From the NCBI GenBank assembly GCA_017646805.1, contig JAGCLW010000004.1:1-64000 (forward strand): DNA of 64,000 nt, in the 5' to 3' direction. Both the position numbers and the translations under genes were made by a program. The stretch is from Paludibacteraceae bacterium. Its GTDB lineage: Bacteria > Bacteroidota > Bacteroidia > Bacteroidales > Paludibacteraceae. The notes beneath the pieces were generated by a model. The model made no database searches and had not been told where the DNA came from. It was given only the letters and a program-made list of their open reading frames with translations. Of the stretch, positions 13,501-19,681 are shown in pieces. Within the stretch, counting starts at the first letter, position 1, and every line of letters begins with the position of its first letter.

Positions 13501-14274
13501 TTATTTGATATTTTCTCGTGCTTTGGTTATGAACGATTGAAAACGCTCCTTATCTTTCGTTCGACAAATATCCAAAAGAAGATTCATTTCGTTGCAAATT
13601 TTTTCCAACTGATCTCCCGTATATGGATTGAAAAGAATTTCAGATAATAAATAATCGTCTTCACTCAACAATCCACGAGCAATATCCATGTGACGTTTGA
13701 AAGTCGTTCCCGGAGCATCTTGATGTTTCATTACCGAACAAAACGCCAACGTAGAAGCAAAAGGAATAGACAATGAATAAGCCGTTGTTTTTTCGTGTTC
13801 TTCAAACGAATATTCAAACAAATTGAGCCTCAACGAACCATAAAAATCTTTGAAAAAGGTTTTTCCCATGTGGTCACTTTCCGAGATAATAATTGCGTTA
13901 TGATTCATCAAATCCGTAAGATTGGCAAACGTAGGTCCAAACATCGGGTGAGTAGAGACAAATCGATGACCACATGTTGCATAAAATTCCGGCAATCCGG
14001 TTTTTACAGAAGCAATATCAGACAAAATACATTGCGACGAAATATAAGGCATTATTTGCTGAAATGCGTCAATTGTATATTTAATTGTCACAGAATTTAT
14101 TACCATTTCGGGATCAAAATTCTTAATTTCTTCCAACTTGCTCAATCGTTGCGTATTAAACACAAAACGAAGTTTGCTAATATCGGTATCAAATACAGCG
14201 ACTTCATGTTTGAAGCATAAAGCATCGGTAAGGAAAGTTCCCATTTTACCTGCTCCAACAATTAAAATTTTCAT
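13501..14274 (-). CDS. tyrA: prephenate dehydrogenase
   Basis: A 257-residue enzyme with an N-terminal Rossmann motif GAGKMG (7-12) and the prephenate-dehydrogenase block STHPMFGPTFANL (about 108-120), followed by the all-helical dimerisation domain. It converts prephenate to 4-hydroxyphenylpyruvate, the committed step to tyrosine. No ACT domain is present, so direct feedback control through one is not expected. Last gene of the pheA operon, 24 bp after the DAHPS/chorismate mutase gene. Confidence 0.9.
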   Translation of the reverse strand: MKILIVGAGKMGTFLTDALCFKHEVAVFDTDISKLRFVFNTQRLSKLEEIKNFDPEMVINSVTIKYTIDAFQQIMPYISSQCILSDIASVKTGLPEFYATCGHRFVSTHPMFGPTFANLTDLMNHNAIIISESDHMGKTFFKDFYGSLRLNLFEYSFEEHEKTTAYSLSIPFASTLAFCSVMKHQDAPGTTFKRHMDIARGLLSEDDYLLSEILFNPYTGDQLEKICNEMNLLLDICRTKDKERFQSFITKARENIK

Positions 14275-14298: not shown

Positions 14299-15372
14299 TT
14301 ATTTATTCATAATTTGCATTTGACGATGCACCGATTCGGAGTGAATTGCTTCGAGTACAACTTTCATAAACGCAGCACTCAATCCCATTTGTTCGCCCAT
14401 GAGACAACGTTTTTCAAGAATTTCATCGTAACGTGTCGTTTGCAAAATCGAAATATTATGTTCTTTTTTATACAATCCTATTTCGTCCGAAACTCGCATT
14501 CGTCGAGCCAAAACTTCAAGCAATTGAGTATCCAATTCATCAATTTGCTTACGAAGATCTTCCAAACTTTCGGTCGATTGTTTCATATCACGAAGAATCA
14601 ACGAATCAAGAATCGCTCTCAACGACTCTGGCGTAACTTGTTGAGAAGCATCACTCCACGCACAGTCAGGATTGCAATGTGATTCTACAATTAAACCTTC
14701 AAATTGCAAATCCATCGCTTGTTGAGAAAGAGATTGAATCAAATCTCTTTTGCCTCCGATATGACTTGGATCACAGAAAATCGGCAACTGAGGAAACCGA
14801 CGTTTCATTTCCACCGGCAAATGCCATTGAGGAAGATTTCGGTAAATCTTTTTATCATAAGAACTAAAACCACGATGAATCACACCAAGTCGTTTGATTC
14901 CTGCTCGATTAAGTCGAAGTAACGCTCCAATCCACAATTCAAGATCCGGATTGACAGGATTTTTTACCAAAACAGGAATATCCACACCTTTCAACGCATC
15001 TGCAATTTCTTGTACAGCAAAAGGATTTGCCGTAGTACGAGCTCCAATCCATAAAATATCCACACCATATTTCAACGCTTCATATACGTGATGAGCAGTG
15101 GCAACTTCGGTAGCCGTGAACATTCCAGTTTCCTTTTTAACTCGTTTCAACCAAGCAAGACCTTCTGATCCTATACCTTCAAAACCTCCCGGTTTTGTTC
15201 TTGGTTTCCAAATTCCGGCACGAAAAATTTTTAGTCCTTGAGCAGCAAGTTCGTGTGCCGTTTGCATAACTTGTTCTTCAGTTTCGGCACTACAAGGTCC
15301 GGCAATCACCATAGGACGTTCTGCCAAACCAACATTTTCCAATTCTAATGGTAAAAGATCTAATGTATCCAT
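14299..15372 (-). CDS. bifunctional DAHP synthase / chorismate mutase
   Basis: A 357-residue fusion. Residues 1-260 are a KDO8P-type DAHP synthase: MVIAGPCSAE (21-30), AGIWKPRTKPGGFEG (about 52-66), CDPSHIGGKRDL (about 195-206). Residues about 268-355 are an AroQ-type chorismate mutase: LRKQIDELDTQLLEVLARRM, then a helix with GLYKKEHN. The protein therefore performs the first step of the shikimate pathway and the conversion of chorismate to prephenate. In related enzymes the mutase domain also lets prephenate or chorismate inhibit the synthase; that applies here only by analogy. It lies between the aminotransferase and tyrA. Confidence 0.93.
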   Translation of the reverse strand: MDTLDLLPLELENVGLAERPMVIAGPCSAETEEQVMQTAHELAAQGLKIFRAGIWKPRTKPGGFEGIGSEGLAWLKRVKKETGMFTATEVATAHHVYEALKYGVDILWIGARTTANPFAVQEIADALKGVDIPVLVKNPVNPDLELWIGALLRLNRAGIKRLGVIHRGFSSYDKKIYRNLPQWHLPVEMKRRFPQLPIFCDPSHIGGKRDLIQSLSQQAMDLQFEGLIVESHCNPDCAWSDASQQVTPESLRAILDSLILRDMKQSTESLEDLRKQIDELDTQLLEVLARRMRVSDEIGLYKKEHNISILQTTRYDEILEKRCLMGEQMGLSAAFMKVVLEAIHSESVHRQMQIMNK

Positions 15373-15382
15373 ATTATTTTTT

Positions 15383-16537
15383 TTATTTTAAAATTCGATT
15401 TAAAGCTTCTTGTAATTTTTCTTCTTTTGCACAAAGTGAAAGACGAATATATCGTTGTCCTTTATCTCCAAAAACAAATCCCGGAGTGAGAAAGACTCTT
15501 TTTTCATATAACAATTTGTCCGAAAGTTCTCCGGCATCGGCGTATTCATTTGGAATTTTTCCCCAAAGAAACATTCCGACTTGCGATTCGTCAAACGTAC
15601 AACCAATTGCCTTCATGATTTGTCCGGCCAAATCTCGCCGACGACGATAAGTTTCATAATTTGCTTGTTCGTGCCATTCGTCCGAATTATTCAATGCCAC
15701 AACTGCTGCTTTTTGCATTGGTCGAAACATTCCCGAATCCATATTGCTTTTTACTTTCAAAATCCATTGTATGAATTGCGAATTCCCAGCCACCATTGCC
15801 ATACGCCAACCCGGCATGTTATGACTTTTACTGAGCGAATTCATTTCAAGACAAACATCTTTTGCTCCTTCGACCGACAACAAACTAAGCGGTTTTTTGT
15901 TAAGAATAAAACTATACGGATTGTCATTGACGATAAGAATGTTATGTTTTTTTCCGAAAGCGACAAGACGCTCAAATAATTCTTTTGTTGCATTCGCTCC
16001 GGTCGGCATGTTCGGATAATTGACCCACATCAATTTTACTTTTGACAAATCCATTTGTTCCAAAACATCAAAATCCGGCATCCAACCATTATTTTCGTCT
16101 AATTCGTAAGGAATAATTTCTGCTTGAACCAATCTTGACACCGAACTATAAGTTGGATAGCCGGGATTAGGAACAAGCACCTTATCTCCAACATTTAAAA
16201 ATGCCAACGAAATGTGCATAATTCCTTCTTTAGAACCAATCAAAGGCTGTATTTCATTTGTTGGATTAAGTTCAACATCATACCATTTTTTATAAAATTT
16301 TGCAAACGATTGTCTAAGTTCCGGAATACCGACATAACTTTGATATCCATGAGCATCAAGACATTTTGCATCATCGCAAAGAGCTTGTATCGTTTCTTCC
16401 GATGGTGGCATATCCGGACTTCCTACGCCTAAACTAATTATATCCCAACCTTCGGCATTCAATTGAGCAATTTCACGCAATTTAGTAGAAAAATAATATT
16501 CTGTAACTGTATTTAATCGATTAGCAGGAGTAATCAT
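15383..16537 (-). CDS. class I pyridoxal-phosphate aminotransferase of the Phe/Tyr operon
   Basis: A 384-residue fold-type I aminotransferase. Cofactor-binding landmarks: SKEGIMHISLAFLN (about 102-115), NYPNMPTGA (173-181), NDNPYSF (204-210) and SLSKSHNMPGWRM with the Schiff-base Lys237; the terminal RLSLCA motif carries the substrate-carboxylate arginine. The position between pheA and DAHPS/chorismate mutase implies that it aminates phenylpyruvate and 4-hydroxyphenylpyruvate, but related sequences include LL-diaminopimelate and aspartate aminotransferases, so specificity is inferred from context. Confidence 0.82.
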   Translation of the reverse strand: MITPANRLNTVTEYYFSTKLREIAQLNAEGWDIISLGVGSPDMPPSEETIQALCDDAKCLDAHGYQSYVGIPELRQSFAKFYKKWYDVELNPTNEIQPLIGSKEGIMHISLAFLNVGDKVLVPNPGYPTYSSVSRLVQAEIIPYELDENNGWMPDFDVLEQMDLSKVKLMWVNYPNMPTGANATKELFERLVAFGKKHNILIVNDNPYSFILNKKPLSLLSVEGAKDVCLEMNSLSKSHNMPGWRMAMVAGNSQFIQWILKVKSNMDSGMFRPMQKAAVVALNNSDEWHEQANYETYRRRRDLAGQIMKAIGCTFDESQVGMFLWGKIPNEYADAGELSDKLLYEKRVFLTPGFVFGDKGQRYIRLSLCAKEEKLQEALNRILK

Positions 16538-16551
16538 AATTGTTATTTTTT

Positions 16552-17388
16552 TTAAATTGTTTGTTCACCAATAGCATAATTTCCTAAAATTCGCAAATCT
16601 ATAGACAATGGTTTGATTGCTAAAATCGCTTGACAATATCGTTCGTAATCTTCATAACATAAATCCACATAGAAGAAATATTCCCACTCTTTTCCAATAA
16701 TTGGATTTGATTGAATTTTTGTCAAATTAATATCATAAAACGAAAGAATGGTTAAAATCTTTGACAATGCACCTGAAGCGTGAGGAACGGCAAAAGCGAT
16801 AGAACTTTTATTCATCACCGGATGAAGCGAAGGCTCATCTTTATGTGCCAAAACAAGAAATCGTGTAAAATTATGTTTATTCGTTTCTATCCCGTCTTCG
16901 ATTACATTCAATCCATAAAGTTTCGCCGCATGAGTACTACAAATAACTCCAACTCCTTTCAAATTTTCGTTAGCTACTTTTTTCGCCGAACCTGCAGTAT
17001 CTCCTCCTTCTACGACTCTTAAATGTGGTTTTCGATCCAAAAAATCACCGCACTGCATCAATGCCACCGGATGAGAAATTACCTCATGAAGATCTTCTAT
17101 TTTTTGTCCTTCCAACGCACACAAACAATGTTTGATTCGCAATTTGTGTTCTCCAACAATAGTCAATCCACTCTTAAGCAACAACTCATAATTTTGCAAC
17201 AAACTACCGGCAATCGTATTTTCTATTGCCACCAACGCATACATTGACTCATCTTCTTTTACAACTTTAAATTCTTCTTTAAAAGAAGCACATTCAACAA
17301 TTTCAATTTCTTCATTTTTAAAAAACAAATGCGATGCTAAATCATGAAAGCATCCATAAGTACCTTGAATTGCAACTCTACGTTTCAT
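16552..17388 (-). CDS. pheA: prephenate dehydratase with ACT domain
   Basis: A 278-residue monofunctional enzyme. Catalytic domain: RVAIQGTYGCFHDLASHLFF (3-22) and the ENTIAGSLLQNYELL block (about 56-70), with the conserved HNFTRFLVL (about 172-180, the Thr-Arg-Phe motif). ACT domain from about 193: GALSKILTILSFYDINLTKI. It converts prephenate to phenylpyruvate; the ACT domain is the usual site of phenylalanine feedback. First structural gene of the operon; the ATG lies about 12 nt beyond the T-run of an attenuator, so read-through of that terminator controls the four genes. Confidence 0.92.
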   Translation of the reverse strand: MKRRVAIQGTYGCFHDLASHLFFKNEEIEIVECASFKEEFKVVKEDESMYALVAIENTIAGSLLQNYELLLKSGLTIVGEHKLRIKHCLCALEGQKIEDLHEVISHPVALMQCGDFLDRKPHLRVVEGGDTAGSAKKVANENLKGVGVICSTHAAKLYGLNVIEDGIETNKHNFTRFLVLAHKDEPSLHPVMNKSSIAFAVPHASGALSKILTILSFYDINLTKIQSNPIIGKEWEYFFYVDLCYEDYERYCQAILAIKPLSIDLRILGNYAIGEQTI

Positions 17389-17400
17389 ATCATTTTTTCA

Positions 17401-17447
17401 AAAAAAAAAGAATCCCGCTATCATCAAATTGAAAGCGGGATTCTTTT
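17401..17447 (-). terminator. attenuator terminator upstream of pheA, with competing antiterminator
   Basis: On the minus strand the stem AAAAGAATCCCGCT (17447-17434) / AGCGGGATTCTTTT (17419-17406) closes a 14-base loop and runs into a T-run ending at 17401, just before the pheA ATG (17388). The leader-peptide region 17498-17486 (AGCGGGTGTTCTT) can pair with the left arm 17445-17434 as AGCGGG/CCCGCT plus TTCTT/AAGAA with a small internal loop, which would form an antiterminator. This is the layout of ribosome-mediated attenuation. Confidence 0.85.
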
Positions 17448-17468
17448 CTATTATTTATTATAAAAATA

Positions 17469-17561
17469 CTAATTCACATATACACAAGAACACCCGCTCT
17501 TACTAAAAAAGTAAAAGTAATAATAAAAAAAGAAAAAATATGGGCGTTGCAAATTTTGCAT
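17469..17561 (-). CDS. Phe/Tyr-rich leader peptide of the pheA operon
   Basis: A 30-codon frame, ATG 17561-17559 to TAG 17471-17469. After MQNLQRP come YFFFFYYYFYFF: twelve aromatic codons in a row (seven Phe, five Tyr), then SKSGCSC and VYVN. Those two amino acids are the end products of the operon's genes. A ribosome stalled in the aromatic run would leave the downstream AGCGGG segment (17498-17493) free to pair with the terminator's left arm, permitting transcription; a ribosome that reads through would cover it and let the terminator form. The frame starts about 50 nt after the predicted transcription start. No Shine-Dalgarno, as usual in this phylum. Confidence 0.85.
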   Translation of the reverse strand: MQNLQRPYFFFFYYYFYFFSKSGCSCVYVN

Positions 17562-17615
17562 ATAAAAAACTTATTTTTAATAAAATTTTGTCGTCAACAC
17601 TCATCTACGACGGTG

Positions 17616-17645
17616 CAAATGTAGTACACTTTTTTTTTTAAACAA
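17616..17645 (-). promoter_or_regulatory. promoter of the Phe/Tyr operon
   Basis: On the minus strand, TTG at 17645-17643 and TACATTTG at 17623-17616, with a 19-bp spacer: a near-perfect Bacteroidetes promoter. It points to the leader peptide, attenuator and pheA, so a transcript of about 200 nt precedes pheA. Confidence 0.8.
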
Positions 17646-17677: not shown

Positions 17678-19681
17678 TCATTTTTGCTTTCGAAGAACAA
17701 CTGCCGAACGAGCCGGAAGATACAAATAAAGCCATTCTTTACTTTTTACTTTTGTCGCATTTTTTTGCGTAAAATGAACAACTGAATCATCCGTCAATCC
17801 AAACCCACCAAATTCTTTACTATCCGTATTCAAAACGACTTTATATGCTCCTTTTTTGACAAGAATACCATAATCGGTAAATGATTTTTCAGGATTAAAA
17901 TTAAACACAAAAAGTAAATCTTTTCGTTGATAAGCCAAAACCTGATCTCCTTGATTATCCCAAACCTCCACAATTTCCGTATCTTGAAAATTTTTGACAT
18001 CTTTGATCAATTCTATCATTTCTCTATCAAAATCTCCTAACCACTTATATTTCAAATCAATATCATCAACCAAATTCCATTGACGACGAGCATATTTATA
18101 ACTCCAACCATTTCCTTCACGTGGAAAATCAATCCATTCCGGATGACCAAATTCATTCCCCATAAAATTGAGGTATCCTCCATTTATTGTTGATGCCGTA
18201 ATTAAACGAATCATTTTATGCAACGCCAATCCCCGATCAACCATATAAGTAGACCCTCCAACAAGACGCGACATGTGGGTATACATTTCGGCATCTATCA
18301 AACGGAAAATCAAAGTCTTATCTCCAACCAAAGCTTGATCATGACTCTCTGCATACGAAATTGTTTTTTCATCTACCCTACGATTGGTTAATGTATATAA
18401 AATATGACCAACTCGCCACCATTCATCTTTTTCTTCTTTTATCGTTTTAATCCAAAAATCAGGAATCCCCATCGCCAATCGATAATCAAATCCCATTCCT
18501 CCATCTTTGATTTTCACTGCTAATCCAGGCATTCCACTCATATCTTCAGCAATTGTAATAGCATAAGGATTAACTTCGTGGATCAATTTGTTTGCCAATG
18601 TCAAATAACAAATCGCATCTCCATCTTGATTGCCATTATAATAATCTTCATATCCGTTAAAATCCTGTTCCAAACCATGATTCAAATACAACATAGAAGT
18701 CACTCCATCAAATCGAAATCCATCAAAGTGATATTCTTCCAACCAAAATTTACAATTAGATAACAAATAATGAAGAACTGTTCCGCTACCATAATTAAAG
18801 CACAAAGAATCCCAAGCCGGATGTTCTCTTCGATGACCATCATGAAAATAAAGATATGGCGTACCATCAAACAATGCCAAACCTTCTCTTGTATTCTTAA
18901 CCGAATGAGAATGAACAATATCCATAATCACAGCGATTCCCATAGAATGAGCCTCATCTATCAACTCTTTTAGTTCATCTGGAGTTCCAAAACGTGAAGA
19001 TGCAGCAAAAAAATTACTCACATGATATCCAAACGAACCATAATAAGGATGTTCCTGAATCGCCATCAATTGAATACAATTATATCCTGCTTTTGCAATA
19101 CGAGGAAGCACAAAAACACGAAACTCATTATAAGTTGAAACACCTTCACTTTCTCCGGCCATACCTATATGAGCTTCATAAATCATCAACGGAGATGTAT
19201 TTGGTTTAAATTTTTTCTTTTTAAATTCATACGGACGAGGCGGTGCCCAAACTTGTGCCGAAAAGATTTTTGTACTTTCATCTTGCACAACACGACGGGC
19301 ATAAGAAGGGATTCTCTCTCCAAATCCATCTTTCCAATGAACCATCAATTTATATAAATCCTCATGTCGAATAGAAAAAATCGGCAACTCTATTTCCCAA
19401 ATTCCATTACCAATATGAGTTAATTGATATTCTGGAGCTTGAGTCCAATTATTAAAATCTCCTATCAAATAAATTTCCGTTGCATTAGGAGCATATTCAC
19501 GAAAAATCCAAGATTTTTTCGTTTGATGAAGTCCAAAATACAAATGTCCATTTGCAAAATCTGTTAGATTTCCTTTTTTTCCAACTAACTCATATTCCTT
19601 ATCAATAGCATATTGACAACGTGCTTTAATAGCGGATTCAAATGGTAATAAATACGGATCATTACTTATAAAATTCACCAT
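17678..19681 (-). CDS. glgB: 1,4-alpha-glucan branching enzyme
   Basis: With ATG at 19681 (MVNFISNDPYLLPF), a 667-residue protein; the longer frame to 19708 would start close to the -7 element. Domains: N-terminal CBM48-like beta-sandwich (about 35-130, with DFNNWTQAPEY), then a GH13 barrel with FRFDGVTSM (nucleophile Asp at about 324), IAEDMSGMP (acid/base Glu at about 379) and YAESHDQALVGDK, and a C-terminal all-beta domain. It makes alpha-1,6 branches in glycogen. No glgA or glgC is in the window. Single gene with its own promoter. Confidence 0.92.
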   Translation of the reverse strand: MVNFISNDPYLLPFESAIKARCQYAIDKEYELVGKKGNLTDFANGHLYFGLHQTKKSWIFREYAPNATEIYLIGDFNNWTQAPEYQLTHIGNGIWEIELPIFSIRHEDLYKLMVHWKDGFGERIPSYARRVVQDESTKIFSAQVWAPPRPYEFKKKKFKPNTSPLMIYEAHIGMAGESEGVSTYNEFRVFVLPRIAKAGYNCIQLMAIQEHPYYGSFGYHVSNFFAASSRFGTPDELKELIDEAHSMGIAVIMDIVHSHSVKNTREGLALFDGTPYLYFHDGHRREHPAWDSLCFNYGSGTVLHYLLSNCKFWLEEYHFDGFRFDGVTSMLYLNHGLEQDFNGYEDYYNGNQDGDAICYLTLANKLIHEVNPYAITIAEDMSGMPGLAVKIKDGGMGFDYRLAMGIPDFWIKTIKEEKDEWWRVGHILYTLTNRRVDEKTISYAESHDQALVGDKTLIFRLIDAEMYTHMSRLVGGSTYMVDRGLALHKMIRLITASTINGGYLNFMGNEFGHPEWIDFPREGNGWSYKYARRQWNLVDDIDLKYKWLGDFDREMIELIKDVKNFQDTEIVEVWDNQGDQVLAYQRKDLLFVFNFNPEKSFTDYGILVKKGAYKVVLNTDSKEFGGFGLTDDSVVHFTQKNATKVKSKEWLYLYLPARSAVVLRKQK

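Follow-up and report, generated by a model that had tools for sequence, protein, structure and literature searches.

The window analysed here, a stretch of 64,000 nucleotides from a Paludibacteraceae bacterium (assembly GCA_017646805.1), contains on its minus strand the genes pheA, a class I/II aminotransferase (AT), a DAHP synthase fused to a type II chorismate mutase (DAHPS/CM) and tyrA, in this order (Table 1). Upstream of pheA, a TTG-N19-TACATTTG promoter (17645-17616) is followed by a short leader ORF and then by a hairpin with a T-run (17445-17401). Further upstream, on the same strand, lies a glgB-like branching enzyme gene that ends at 17678. A small hairpin (CGTCG...CGACG, 17590-17612 of the minus strand) was also seen at the 5´ tip of the predicted transcript, ahead of the ATG of the leader. 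The original prediction had described the promoter with its 19-bp spacer, a 30-codon ORF with 12 aromatic codons (7 Phe, 5 Tyr), a terminator and a T-run ending 12 nt before pheA, and all of these are present. The segment 17498-17486, claimed to pair with the left arm of the terminator, is found as strand 2 of an antiterminator, with its bounds refined to 17500-17486.

Table 1. Features of the pheA leader and operon, in the direction of transcription.
Feature	Position	Strand	Basis or remark
Promoter: TTG (17645-17643), 19-nt spacer, TACATTTG (17623-17616)	17616..17645	minus	Bacteroidetes TAnnTTTG type
Leader peptide ORF, 30 codons, MQNLQRPYFFFFYYYFYFFSKSGCSCVYVN	17469..17561	minus	kept as a class, sequence not fixed
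Strand 1, AACGCCCATA, at the run start; pairs beside or with strand 2	17539..17548	minus	CATA:TATG; AACGCCC:GGGTGTT
Regulatory codon run YFFFFYYYFYFF, 12 consecutive codons (7 Phe, 5 Tyr)	17505..17540	minus	translation
Strand 2, AGAGCGGGTGTTCTT, 5´ strand of the antiterminator	17486..17500	minus	covariation, folding
Strand 2b, TATATGTG, partner of the strand 1 CATA	17475..17482	minus	motif, permutation test
Strand 3, AAGAATCCCGCTTT, common to antiterminator (with 2) and terminator (with 4)	17432..17445	minus	folding, covariation
Strand 4, TAGCGGGATTCTT, 3´ arm of the terminator	17408..17420	minus	folding, covariation
T-run of the intrinsic terminator	17401..17410	minus	ends 12 nt before the pheA ATG (17388)
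pheA, prephenate dehydratase	16552..17388	minus	PF00800, E 3e-54; ATG at 17388
AT, class I/II aminotransferase	15383..16537	minus	PF00155
DAHPS/CM, DAHP synthase and chorismate mutase type II fusion	14299..15372	minus	PF00793 and PF01817
tyrA, prephenate dehydrogenase	13501..14274	minus	PF02153

Several sequence features of a ribosome-mediated attenuator are found together at this locus: a short leader ORF in which codons for the end products abound, an intrinsic terminator between this ORF and the first gene, an antiterminator (2:3) that is mutually exclusive with the terminator (3:4), and an upstream promoter motif from which the leader would be transcribed together with the operon. The terminator region folds with -30.8 kcal/mol (z -5.3) and the antiterminator with -19.1 kcal/mol (z -3.1); folding of both alternatives had been proposed as a check of the original prediction. 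With all strands present the terminator (-33.0 kcal/mol) is far more stable than the antiterminator (-19.1 kcal/mol), thus the switch must act during transcription. Strand 1 was absent from the original prediction. Its CATA (17542-17539) can pair with the TATG in the middle of 17482-17475, and since this helix encloses the codon run and strand 2, it opposes the 2:3 pairing. In addition, AACGCCC (17548-17542) can pair directly with strand 2 (GGGTGTT), a helix that is formed in the minimum free energy fold of the window. The strand 1 helix would give the classical three-helix layout.

To collect relatives we used PheA, which yielded the upstream regions of 154 Bacteroidales loci, some of them nearly identical, and of 44 loci from the rest of the class or phylum. 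We called a leader any ORF that begins with ATG, is no longer than 60 amino acids and has at least seven Phe or Tyr residues in 12 codons. Such an ORF is located upstream of pheA in 134 of the 154 Bacteroidales loci and in 26 of the 44 others. The reverse strand gave 4 and 0, and dinucleotide shuffles gave means of 1.0 and 0.2; control windows from the same loci contained it in 11 of 3253 cases. About 13% of the Bacteroidales pheA upstream regions are without a detectable leader, and four distant loci in the sample from the phylum (L198-L201) lack one. Named species with the leader include Phocaeicola vulgatus, P. coprophilus, Paraprevotella clara and Dysgonomonas alginatilytica; in P. vulgatus ATCC 8482 it is predicted on the complement of NC_009614.1 at 2675491-2675402. 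The leader also occurs in Bacteroides finegoldii, where the collection's gene table, which is incomplete, contains no gene. One B. finegoldii record with the aromatic operon and leader (NZ_OY725947.1, L212) is labelled as a plasmid and may be a mislabelled piece of the chromosome. The gene order pheA-AT-DAHPS/CM-tyrA is retained in most of the named loci of relatives. A TAnnTTTG motif within 130 nt of the leader ATG was found in 95 of 103 relatives (mean of 7 in mononucleotide shuffles), mostly 20-30 nt before this ATG and with a TTG 18-20 nt upstream.

The leader peptides themselves gave no match in Pfam or NCBIfam. Phe is encoded by TTT in 77% of the Phe codons of the leaders and in 36% of those in long ORFs. 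The last four codons of the run are often exactly TACTTTTACTTT, with third positions more fixed than the choice of amino acid requires. Other Phe/Tyr codon runs in the genome were considered as a second leader and rejected: the C43 and C68 runs are antisense to coding regions, and the C37 run sits in low-complexity sequence.

Covariation was determined on a MAFFT alignment of 69 non-redundant core leaders, with 500 shuffles and with the register slid as control. For the antiterminator, 90.7% of the cells are paired and 49 show a double change (16.5 in shuffles, 0/500; other registers at most 14), and for the terminator the values are 95.6% and 86 (27.7 in shuffles, 0/500; other registers at most 21). 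Among 110 leaders we found 79 distinct 2:3 pairings, and the pairs formed by a locus' own strands 2 and 3 beat those of mismatched loci in 84% of draws, or 87% in the distant set alone. The 1:2 stem is not countable on this alignment since its spacing shifts, and we therefore anchored it by motif and assessed it by permutation. Of 72 core leaders, 37 have a CATA:TATG stem, that of the window among them, and the same motif did not detect it in the others; its outer flank pairs covary (114/148, permutation 0/2000). Some relatives have terminators with short T-runs (TTTTAC). Aligning Bacteroidales pheA leaders had been suggested as a way to detect covarying stems and conservation of the Phe/Tyr run, and the alignment revealed both.

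The geometry of the leaders can be compared with the footprint of a ribosome. In the relatives, strand 2 mostly begins 11-14 nt past the last aromatic codon, and a ribosome covers approximately 12 nt downstream (PMC4833913), so the usual strand 2 start is about one ribosome front edge from this codon. In the window the distance from the run to the start of strand 2 is 4-7 nt, shorter than usual. The leader stop codon of the relatives lies where strand 2 begins or else well beyond this strand; a ribosome that has reached the stop or its vicinity would cover strand 2 either way.

The original prediction proposed that one leader reads both end products of the operon. This is supported by 109 of 110 non-redundant leaders, which contain both Phe and Tyr (means 5.5 and 4.2), and by the Tyr content, which tracks the downstream genes. 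Where pheA has no downstream operon partner, the Phe/Tyr composition of the run is 7/0 (G018), 9/0 (G028), 6/1 (G099) and 6/0 (G038), with two Tyr codons outside the run in the G028 leader. The rest of the operon is located elsewhere in G018, G028, G142, G108 and G099 and has its own Tyr-rich leader in each of them, so that Phe-only-type and Tyr-rich leaders occur side by side in the genomes G018, G028 and G099. The Tyr-rich leaders of such AT/DAHPS/tyrA operons without pheA are MNNTFGYYAFYYYFFYNN, MIKNISVFAYFYYYFYFSKK, MSTFAYFYYYFYFNIK, MATQLFVYSYYFYFSWTS and the tandem MTTYTFSYFYYWFRTP / MVNFEFYYGFYYYLD. The Tyr fraction is 0-0.14 for lone pheA, 0.44 on average for pheA operons and 0.56-0.63 for tyrA operons; the corresponding p values (3e-4 and 7e-4) are indicative, because they rest on few loci and on groups drawn up once the outliers had been seen. 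The leader can be absent where pheA sits behind another gene or alone (L004, L092, L109, L025), and pheA copies relocated behind another gene have apparently lost it. Judged from these sequences, the match between codon content and downstream genes would be a natural experiment, and it supports amino-acid sensing.

Two Phe/Tyr leaders in series, each with its own terminator, were found at no fewer than 15 loci from about ten families, and at most of these loci each unit has its own 2:3 match. The tandem loci in front of pheA are L003, L005, L009, L011, L026, L038-L040, L126, L137, L139, L145, L148, L151 and L156. By eye, L028 appears to contain another tandem arrangement, and tandem units were seen before a tyrA operon at L275.

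Leaders for other amino acids may also be present in the collection. At L284 (G105), a His-leader candidate (MKRTVLHHHHHHYNGQ) and a hairpin precede an ORF starting with MLRIAVQ (hisG-like), which suggests His attenuation in the same order. In G165, G133, G041 and G105, short ATG-started frames end in YWWW or NWWW (for example MSTPKKDYWWW, MSTPNNDYWWW and MRTILVNTYWWW) and look like candidate Trp leader peptides. A pattern search for Trp runs gave mostly matches inside genes.

Taken at about 92% probability, our main reading is that a ribosome-mediated transcription attenuator controls the pheA-AT-DAHPS/CM-tyrA operon. The layout of ribosome-mediated attenuation had been recognised in the original prediction, and the conservation of the leader and the covariation of both helices support it; ribosome stalling, coupling of transcription and translation, and termination are inferred. 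RNA polymerase would start near 17610, and a ribosome would begin the leader ORF. With both Phe-tRNA and Tyr-tRNA charged, the ribosome would clear the 12-codon run, reach the end of the ORF and cover strand 2, whereupon strand 3 would pair with strand 4 and transcription would stop at the T-run. When charged Phe-tRNA or Tyr-tRNA runs short, the ribosome would stall in the run, covering strand 1 and leaving strand 2 free, so that 2:3 could form before strand 4 is made and RNA polymerase would enter pheA. If no ribosome is loaded, strand 1 would pair with strand 2 or around it, and the terminator would form.

The leader might instead control the translation of pheA, by re-initiation or by sequestration of the start site, and the hairpin of the window, which ends just 12 nt before the pheA ATG, speaks for this. 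However, in relatives the hairpin is located from about 10 to more than 100 nt away from pheA while the T-run is kept, and the tandem copies stack two hairpin/T-run units. Since the distance to the gene varies and the T-run stays, we consider translational control very unlikely. Arrest by the nascent peptide, in which the aromatic peptide binds free Phe or Tyr in the exit tunnel as in TnaC and charged tRNA is not sensed, is a shade less probable still. In its favour, the run often ends with YFYF in the core set, but no residue and no length is fixed: Phe and Tyr swap freely, the length of the run varies, and the residues beyond it change along with strand 2, which they encode. It is the lack of a fixed peptide, together with a codon composition that follows the products of the operon, that disfavours this mechanism. 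Finally, a chance ORF over the ordinary, unregulated terminator of the glgB-like gene could be imagined in an AT-rich region with a same-strand gene ending upstream, but this is refuted, as such ORFs hardly occur in shuffles or control windows, the order of promoter, ORF and terminator is conserved, and both 2:3 and 3:4 covary.

The attenuator proposed here can be compared with known systems. The enterobacterial leaders of pheA (pheL; Rfam Phe_leader) and pheST (pheM) likewise contain a short Phe-rich ORF, alternative 2:3 and 3:4 helices and a terminator before a Phe gene; here, in contrast, Phe and Tyr codons are mixed, the operon has four genes including tyrA, and the promoter is of the Bacteroidetes type. 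Neither the window nor the relatives matched any Rfam family at gathering score, and permissive thresholds gave chance-level matches only; Phe_leader was absent even at E<=1, and the search matched no known T-box or riboswitch aptamer family. Bacteroid-trp RNA (RF01692; PMC2864571), a likely cis-regulatory RNA associated with trp by its name, comes from the same phylum, but its model matched neither the window nor the genome of the window. For Flavobacterium psychrophilum, a structured 5´ element upstream of pheA has been reported that is conserved in Flavobacteriaceae and has no Rfam match, together with hints of attenuation by leader peptides at operons for amino acids (PMC9723704). The passages seen state no mechanism, codon content or covariation for the element, which is possibly identical with the one described here. 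In B. thetaiotaomicron, sORFs in long 5´ UTRs are reminiscent of attenuation leader peptides, with no aromatic leader named in the main-text passages seen (PMC7366714). The uORF attenuator of Corynebacterium ilvB-II also has a single leader whose codons stand for several end products of its pathway (PMC10272879); it differs in that it concerns branched-chain amino acids in Actinobacteria and was reporter-tested. Leader peptides were known only from Proteobacteria and Actinobacteria before Firmicutes were added (PMC2965389, 2010). We found no description of dual sensing with operon-matched codons or of tandem units in the searchable literature; the attenuation survey by Lopatovskaya et al. 2010 might include Bacteroidetes predictions. 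The principle is a textbook one, but the element is unannotated, it occurs across the class, and its codons match the genes that it would control.

We consider it probable that these leaders form a class-wide, uncatalogued attenuator family in which one leader senses Phe and Tyr, in which the codons were re-tuned when operons were split (to Phe-only where pheA is alone, to Tyr-rich in front of tyrA operons) and in which two attenuators in series evolved repeatedly. Bacteroidota hardly use Shine-Dalgarno sites. Attenuation needs a ribosome close behind RNA polymerase, and the leader makes this testable in Bacteroidota, for instance in the cultured Phocaeicola vulgatus; if the family is real, close coupling of transcription and translation across Bacteroidia would be implied. 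Very many genomes would gain a leader gene that their annotation lacks; the leader also offers a candidate Phe/Tyr-responsive control element for engineering, and it predicts how the synthesis of Phe and Tyr is regulated in gut Bacteroidales.
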